Of a DNA stretch of 64,000 bases, positions 11,545 through 13,892 are shown piece after piece. A model generated the notes under the pieces. The model was not told where the DNA came from. It saw only the letters and a list, made by a program, of their open reading frames with translations, and searched no databases. Origin of the DNA: Rhodomicrobium sp. (GTDB taxonomy: Bacteria; Pseudomonadota; Alphaproteobacteria; Rhizobiales; HXMU1428-3). The DNA lies in assembly GCA_021604665.1 (NCBI GenBank), contig BQJK01000003.1, forward strand, positions 186,001-250,000. The letters are read 5' to 3'. The translations under genes and the position numbers were made by a program. The first letter of the stretch is position 1. Every line of letters begins with the position of its first letter.

Positions 11545-11844
11545 TTAGACTCTAAGCCTAGAGTTTTTCATATCGGACGGGCTGGTTTGAGGGCCAAATT
11601 TGAACCAGCCGTGCCGTGCATCAGTGGGGGCCGCAGCTCTCTTTGCAAAATTCATCTGATGTGCCGGTTTACCGATTTTGTGGGGTATTTCGTCAGTAAA
11701 GCGTAACCAGAGATTAGATATGGCAGTGTTGCTGTTCTTTTCTTTGAGCCATTCACCTTTTTCTCGGAGCTTTGCGGTTTCCGGCTTGAGAGGGTGGGGT
11801 TGGCTTTGGCTATGGTGACGAAATAAAATCTTTTGTGAGGTCAT
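11545..11844 (-). CDS. possible small basic protein (weak)
   Basis: A 99-codon open frame fills the interval between two forward genes on the opposite strand. Composition is plausible for coding (KLREKGEWLKEKN; HGWFKFGPQTSP near the C-terminus), but there is no clear ribosome binding site and I recognise no family. If it is not a gene, the interval from 11507 to 11846 holds only the promoter of the next gene. Confidence 0.3.
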   Translation of the reverse strand: MTSQKILFRHHSQSQPHPLKPETAKLREKGEWLKEKNSNTAISNLWLRFTDEIPHKIGKPAHQMNFAKRAAAPTDARHGWFKFGPQTSPSDMKNSRLRV

Positions 11845-11846
11845 TT

Positions 11847-12359
11847 ATGCAGCTTTCCAATGTGGTTGGGCCGCTAAAGCAACTTGATGTTTTTTCTAAA
11901 CTAACAGATATGCAGATTCTGCGTATTGTTGAGAGCGCTGAGCGGGTTGTTTACAAACCTGGTCAGGTAATGATTGAGGATGGATGCGCTGGTGATGCAG
12001 CTTATTTCATTCTGGTTGGTTCTGTTGAGCGGGTTGGCCAATATGGCCTGCATGAAAGCCATGAGCGTTTTGGCCATGGTATCCTGGTTGGTGAAATGGC
12101 GATGCTTGTGGAGCATGTGCATTCTTCAACTGTGCGGGCAAAATCTGAGGTGAAAGCGCTGCGGATTTCGCGCGATATGCTTTATCAGATTATGAGTGAA
12201 GATCCGGCGATTGCTGATTGTTTCATCCAGACAATTAAAGGCCGGCTGCATGTGATGGTTGAGCGCATACGTGAGATTGACCAGACGCTTGAAAAAGCTG
12301 AAACAGCGACCTTTGATACCGTTTGGGTGGCAACTGAAGGTGCGATGGCAATGCATTAG
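11847..12359 (+). CDS. cyclic nucleotide-binding domain protein (Crp-like sensor domain only)
   Basis: A ~170-residue protein with one cNMP-binding beta-roll: LSNVVGPLKQLDVFSKLTDMQILRIVESAERVVYKP-type start, a GCAGDAAYFILVGSVERV core, and GILVGEMAMLVEHVHSSTVRAKSE-type phosphate-cassette region (quoted in parts). It lacks the C-terminal helix-turn-helix of Crp/Fnr regulators, so it probably senses a nucleotide and acts through protein contact. ATG 11847 has a TGAGG ribosome binding site. A strong terminator follows. Confidence 0.85.
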   Translation: MQLSNVVGPLKQLDVFSKLTDMQILRIVESAERVVYKPGQVMIEDGCAGDAAYFILVGSVERVGQYGLHESHERFGHGILVGEMAMLVEHVHSSTVRAKSEVKALRISRDMLYQIMSEDPAIADCFIQTIKGRLHVMVERIREIDQTLEKAETATFDTVWVATEGAMAMH

Positions 12360-13635: not shown

Positions 13636-13672
13636 AAAAAAGCGCCCAACCGGGATGTGGACGGCTGGGCGC
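13636..13672 (-). terminator. rho-independent terminator of the small RNA candidate
   Basis: On the minus strand GCGCCCA (13666-13672) and TGGGCGC (13642-13648) form a 7-bp GC-rich stem followed directly by a seven-T run. The loop is 17 bases. It is oriented away from lolA, so it could also end a lolA transcript that reads through. Confidence 0.8.
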
Positions 13673-13858
13673 GGTTAACTGCGATTAGTCACGCGGTGCG
13701 ATGAAGAGCTTCATTTATGTTGCGAGATCCGCATCTCAAATGTTTTTCGCTCTTCTTCGCGGTGATTTCAGTCGCGAACGCCGAGAGGGAATACGGCGTA
13801 TGAGGTTGTGTCTCGGTTAGACGGGGGGCACTACCGATAGGAATGACACACCCTCTTG
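13636..13858 (-). ncRNA. candidate structured small RNA (unannotated)
   Basis: No protein gene fits this interval, but the minus strand shows a full transcription unit. A -35 TTGAAT (13887-13892) and a -10 TATTCT (13865-13870) are 16 bases apart, and a strong rho-independent terminator lies at 13636-13672. Between them, four hairpins can be drawn. One pairs GAGG and TGTGTC at the 5' end with GACACA and CCTC (13802-13855), containing an inner TCGGT/ACCGA stem and a loop with six consecutive Cs. The others are CGCCG/CGGCG, CGCG/CGCG, and GAAGAGC/GCTCTTC around an inner GAGAT/ATCTC. A C-rich exposed loop is a feature of many alphaproteobacterial trans-acting sRNAs that target ribosome binding sites. 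A 9-codon frame (MKLFIAPRD, 13685-13714) lies inside but has no good ribosome binding site. The family is unknown to me. Confidence 0.55.
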
Positions 13859-13864
13859 ACAATT

Positions 13865-13892
13865 AGAATAAGCGAAGTTTTCGTTAATTCAA
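13865..13892 (-). promoter_or_regulatory. putative promoter of the small RNA candidate
   Basis: TTGAAT (13887-13892, -35) and TATTCT (13865-13870, -10) on the minus strand are separated by 16 bases. They place the transcription start near 13856-13859, exactly where the first large hairpin begins. Confidence 0.45.

Follow-up and report, generated by a model that had tools for sequence, protein, structure and literature searches.

A predicted small RNA family beside lolA in Hyphomicrobiales, with constant C-rich loops on covarying stems

Main

A 64,000-nt stretch of a Rhodomicrobium sp. genome, here called the window, almost certainly contains a conserved small RNA gene on its minus strand, as predicted from its sequence and from comparison with relatives. 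As far as searched, the RNA is one copy of an undescribed small RNA family, the nearest known sRNAs having been compared partly by description only. It probably acts in trans, through C-rich loops that would pair with G-rich ribosome-binding sites, most likely with the aid of Hfq. We give about even chances to the fuller picture of an undescribed riboregulator family, old in Hyphomicrobiales, that has stayed next to lolA and presents as many as three C-rich loops simultaneously to G-rich ribosome-binding sites; in the window's genus its third stem-loop (SL3) would have grown to an arm of 105–172 nt. According to the available text of PMC4414408, many bacterial sRNAs do not extend beyond close relatives; the lolA-linked RNA is retained, with the same loop, architecture and location, in many families of an order to which Hyphomicrobium, Methyloceanibacter and Kaistia belong. 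Cultured members of the family exist, and the alignments and covariance models (R1 and R2) could define an RNA family outside Rfam 15.

Results

The locus comprises a promoter, three stem-loops and an intrinsic terminator (Table 1). A preliminary description had claimed minus-strand −35 and −10 elements, hairpins and a T-run terminator; all can be read in the sequence, and the promoter and terminator recur in relatives. Transcription is expected to start near position 13858 of the minus strand. The outer stem of SL1 has 11 bp with one mismatch and is followed by an asymmetric bulge and an inner stem, UCGG/CCGA. By sequence and fold, the SL1 loop is UAGUGCCCCCCGUCUAA (13833-13817, minus strand). 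It contains the six consecutive Cs previously reported for the first hairpin (CCCCCC, 13828-13823). SL2 is a UUCCCUCU-loop hairpin.

Table 1 Features of the sRNA locus in the window.
Feature	Position	Strand	Basis
sRNA locus, whole unit	13892-13635	minus	promoter, SL1, SL2, SL3 and terminator read from sequence
−35 element, TTGAAT	13892-13887	minus	sequence; TTGA/TTGC at the expected stretch in 82/87 loci
−10 element, TATTCT	13870-13865	minus	sequence; 16-nt spacer from −35
SL1	13855-13802	minus	fold, model R2, covariation
SL2, ACGCCG/CGGCGU stem, loop UAUUCCCUCU	13799-13778	minus	fold; covariation (helix 4)
SL3, long imperfect hairpin (short GCGC hairpin in most relatives)	about 13777-13680	minus	folds of seven genus members, swap test
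Intrinsic terminator, 11-bp stem, 9-nt loop and seven T	stem 13672-13642, T-run 13641-13635	minus	sequence, fold, crude terminator finder in relatives

The predicted transcript, 13858-13635, folds at −83.6 kcal/mol against a shuffled mean of −57.55 (z −5.89; 0/200 shuffles equally stable), and 13892-13636 gives a z of −5.33. Comparison across the family bears out the earlier proposal of an unannotated small RNA gene on the minus strand. A consensus scan flagged neither a promoter nor a terminator at the locus: with 8 of 12 bases matching, the promoter fell one short of the required 9, and the 9-nt terminator loop exceeded the limit of 8. From this single sequence, then, the promoter is a weak one, and the case for the locus stands on the comparison with relatives.

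For this comparison, 114 loci were reduced to 89 unique cores by merging duplicates and leaving out cut cores (L017, L025, L027 and L101); L024 was dropped before the counts because it is 6S. Of the 89, 85 were used in the arm-swap test, 87 in the promoter test and 88 in the count of outer-stem versions. The best promoter score, out of 12 and measured as the match to the sRNA family's own consensus, was at least 10 in 34/87 loci compared with 2/435 mononucleotide shuffles, and 56/87 best-scoring sites had a 16-nt spacer. The TTGA or TTGC tabulated for the −35 element was sought 80 to 40 nt ahead of the inner stem. A terminator was detected by a crude finder in 87/89 loci, and its loop has at least four consecutive Cs in 63/87.

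The stems covary while the loops stay constant. With MAFFT alone the outer stem of SL1 was misaligned; hence, R2 was built on six members of equal length, three of nine candidates having been left out for a shifted helix. Run on 98 chosen sources, R2 recovers 97 and misses L059. In the R2 alignment (95 distinct rows), 96.1% of cells are paired compared with 77.1% in shuffles, 18/22 pairs vary on both sides (15.7 in shuffles, 14/500 of which reach 18), and both sides are changed in 412 cells (113.7 in shuffles; 412 reached by 0/500). Compensatory changes in the stems of relatives had been set beforehand as a test, and the covariation score of 0.590 compares with 0.224 in shuffles (0/500 reach it; slid controls at most 0.084), in an alignment that is fitted to the R2 structure and with shuffles that ignore relatedness. 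The arm-swap test is model-free: in 83/85 loci the native SL1 arms outperform the swapped-arm mean in pairing, and the native SL2 arms do so in 77/77 loci having the loop motif, while single swaps are as stable as the native arms in 7.8% (SL1) and 12.6% (SL2) of cases.

The SL1 outer stem occurs in 71 versions among 88 loci, and the loop GUGCCCCCCGUC that it carries is almost invariant across the family. This constancy arises partly by construction for loci picked by loop pattern; copies found by BLAST or model also keep the loop, with few changes. A CCCUC-type motif is present in SL2 of 77/85 loci. Five loci with Kaistia titles (L059, L064, L065, L072 and L080) and L098 have an intact SL1 loop and an SL2 without the TCCCTC motif; the roles of the two loops may therefore be separate.

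SL3 is more variable. A small GCGC-type hairpin occupies its place in 54/57 short-spacer members (motif test). In the window's genus this place spans 105–172 nt, and in each of seven members examined it folds into a long hairpin with z of −3.2 to −7.8 (mononucleotide shuffles). In five genus relatives SL3 is 48–56% identical to that of the window, and in a swap test of six loci the own halves pair best in L001, L002 and L003, and not clearly so in L004, L005 and L007.

Of 61 genomes searched by BLAST with the locus DNA, 16 gave matches, one of these being the genome of the window. Six of the seven other genus genomes match; the seventh (G001) may have an assembly gap, given that it also has no lolA match. 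An exact pattern of the SL1 loop and inner stem occurs in 91 stretches of the named genome collection. By title, 80 of these are mostly Hyphomicrobiales (Hyphomicrobium, Filomicrobium, Methyloceanibacter, Kaistia, Chthonobacter, Rhodomicrobium and others), and the remaining titles among the 80 are unclassified bins or odd single labels (one Hyphomonadaceae, one Bacterium MnTg02). R1, built from 46 family members, matches 97/297 genomes of the order at E ≤ 0.01 and 86/297 at E ≤ 0.001. In class-wide draws, which overlap and include a few genomes of the order, R1 matches 2/289 genomes (the window's own and one unchecked at E = 0.01) and R2 matches 1/385, the window's own. The large R1 and R2 genome searches used stricter filters, with which weak matches are lost. 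A searched plasmid collection gave no match to the locus.

Weak R1 matches were inspected in 20 of the 97 genomes. Eleven have lolA upstream on the same strand, two have only xth downstream, and two have neither gene in reach but show the full architecture. The other five (E 0.0036 to 0.0096), with neither neighbour gene and an architecture unlike the family, were taken as false; a match at E 0.0024 is syntenic. LolA was sought in 30 genomes of the order in which R1 had found nothing; 29 were positive, and an RNA of similar architecture was seen by eye downstream of LolA in seven of them. In these 29, R2 gave four matches at E ≤ 1 (6.5e-5, 0.0046, 0.031 and 0.052), all downstream of lolA and on its strand, and no match at that threshold in the other 25. 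Three of the four loci (L172, L168 and L189) are among the seven seen by eye, and the fourth is L169.

The preliminary description had left the family assignment open, and an Rfam 15 search found no family at the gathering cut-off at the locus, where up to E 10 only scores far under cut-off appeared; 20 relative loci likewise gave none at cut-off. Elsewhere in the window, ffh sRNA (RF01793, 31813-31864, minus) and a tRNA (RF00005, 43962-44033, plus) match over cut-off. The single 6S match (RF00013) of the window's genome, G000, lies on another contig (G000:C1:814315-814473, 87 bits). Neither ar14 (RF02344) nor Rhizobiales-2 (RF01723) has a match in G000 at E ≤ 1; they are over cut-off in 3/20 and 1/25 genomes searched, respectively. 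By its consensus, ar14 resembles our RNA as an alphaproteobacterial sRNA with CCUCC-type hairpin loops and a terminator, and Rhizobiales-2 shares the hairpins and the C-rich terminator loop. The diverged lolA-linked RNA of genome G042 (L189, 2142-2276) scores 32.1 bits to ar14 (cut-off 58.8) and 28.8 bits to Rhizobiales-2 (cut-off 40); its ar14 score may reflect distant kinship or merely a shared C-rich composition. Two genomes (G158 and G243) have over-cut-off ar14 at places apart from the lolA-linked RNA.

Four further sRNAs were compared through the available portions of the papers describing them. EcpR1/SmelC291, broadly distributed in Rhizobiales, has a 5' hairpin with a strongly conserved loop, which pairs with dnaA and gcrA mRNAs, and a second hairpin (PMC4414408). 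Its loop motif is UCCGCCGCAUCU, whereas the SL1 loop given above lacks that motif, and it lies beside divK-pleD in Rhizobiaceae rather than beside genes for LolA and an exonuclease III-like protein. EcpR1, which has reported Hyphomicrobiaceae members, is set apart from our RNA by the described loop motif and gene neighbourhood. The remaining three are likewise set apart by description. GsrN is a hairpin RNA whose C-rich loop pairs with an mRNA leader (PMC5869019); its BLAST hits are reported only in Caulobacteraceae, and it typically lies near general stress response genes (C. crescentus excepted), in contrast to the lolA/xth context here. CcnA pairs a CCCC loop with GGGG in the ctrA and gcrA leaders and is encoded at the Caulobacter replication origin (PMC8959179). 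PmaR, which binds targets with an accessible C-rich loop, has a single spoon-like structure and is reported only from Agrobacterium and one Rhizobium in the portions of PMC6234868 available. Among the matches listed, a literature search returned no sRNA beside lolA in this order and a search with the loop string returned one unrelated match only; an entry in supplementary sRNA tables may exist.

Discussion

We favour trans pairing because it fits an RNA whose exposed C-rich loops stay constant while the stems change, and which has a conserved promoter and a terminator. The preliminary description had suggested a trans-acting RNA aimed at ribosome-binding sites, and this is plausible. The sRNA would be about 224 nt long (shorter in most relatives) and made from its own housekeeping-type promoter up to its own terminator. 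Its stems would keep the C-rich loops open, SL1 presenting the nearly invariant GUGCCCCCCGUC and SL2 CCCUC or CCCUCC, and the terminator loop, also C-rich in many relatives, would add a further pairing sequence. With probable help from Hfq, these loops may pair with G-rich Shine-Dalgarno regions in several mRNAs, and such pairing would block translation; hfq was found in 10/10 genomes searched, among them that of the window. According to the available text of PMC6234868, PMC5869019 and PMC8959179, alphaproteobacterial RNAs with C-rich loops act on mRNAs. An exposed conserved C-rich loop, an own promoter and a terminator characterize trans-acting C-rich-loop sRNAs, which are a kind and not one homologous family, and all three features are found here.

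Searches for targets gave no support for this mechanism. The 9-base complement of the SL1 loop, ACGGGGGGC, is not enriched: four genomes contain 36 sites, five of them the antisense of the sRNA gene itself, compared with 46 for the reversed pattern. A G-run of at least four is present in 5/15 gcrA leaders, at no constant place (15 of 23 starts were located; that of the window's genome is among the eight unlocated). GcrA has only a weak best match in the window's genome (L272, G000:C1:485701-486177; 81 bits compared with about 173–179 in three genus genomes), and the usual gcrA may be missing from its assembly, or lost. One ACGGGGGGC site lies 4 nt ahead of the ATG of a fabF-like gene (G000:C1:630431-630439, plus strand, locus L226), where pairing with the leader reaches −23.0 kcal/mol against a shuffled mean of −13.5. 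Twenty fabF-like loci were examined, and none of the 19 others has the site as a 9-base match; four of the leaders (L283, L288, L296 and L299) outdo their shuffles by 2.8 to 4.8 kcal/mol, and most of the rest do not outdo them.

That the loop is constant over many families, yet these tests gave no conserved mRNA partner, could also mean that a real RNA acts via a protein, with the SL1 loop as a binding site through which the RNA titrates or modulates that protein. We know of no candidate protein for this loop. We consider such a role unlikely, given that most loci also have C-rich sequence in SL2 and in the terminator loop (77/85 and 63/87), as expected for pairing with G-rich mRNA. Far less credible is a short peptide, although two frames are readable: nine codons at 13714-13685, pointed out in the preliminary description, and four codons, GTG-CCC-CCC-GTC-stop, in the SL1 loop, where a stop follows GTC in 68/89 loci. 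The nine-codon frame (M-K-L-F-I-A-P-R-D-stop) is not conserved, lying in the fast-changing SL3, and no similar frame was seen in the sequences of the five genus relatives compared. The four-codon frame lacks its stop in 21/89 loci, and the distant copies L150, L152, L154 and L157 have no start codon.

The genomic neighbourhood bears on a cis role that we judge improbable: the RNA might instead serve xth as an attenuator or leader, or be the 3' end of the lolA mRNA after processing. In the window, lolA lies ahead of the RNA and xth (exonuclease III-like) follows it on the same strand, and linkage to lolA is near constant, with the gene upstream on the same strand in 72/76 loci with 800 nt of upstream sequence; a lolA transcript could run on into the sRNA. 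However, the family promoter sits between lolA and the RNA, and xth follows in only 23/73 loci with 1300 nt of downstream sequence. For the remaining 50, a crude ORF rule places the longest ORF nearby on the opposite strand in 36 loci and on the same one in 14. The downstream gene thus varies while lolA is near constant, and the RNA is therefore unlikely to be a leader of xth. Pfam names in the window include LolA, an exonuclease/endonuclease-family protein (xth), FtsK, a cyclic-nucleotide-binding protein and a response regulator. The gene for the cyclic-nucleotide-binding protein lies beyond xth (11835-12359, plus strand), and look-alikes of it are convergent just after the RNA in six xth-less loci (L013, L038, L055, L074, L089 and L110).
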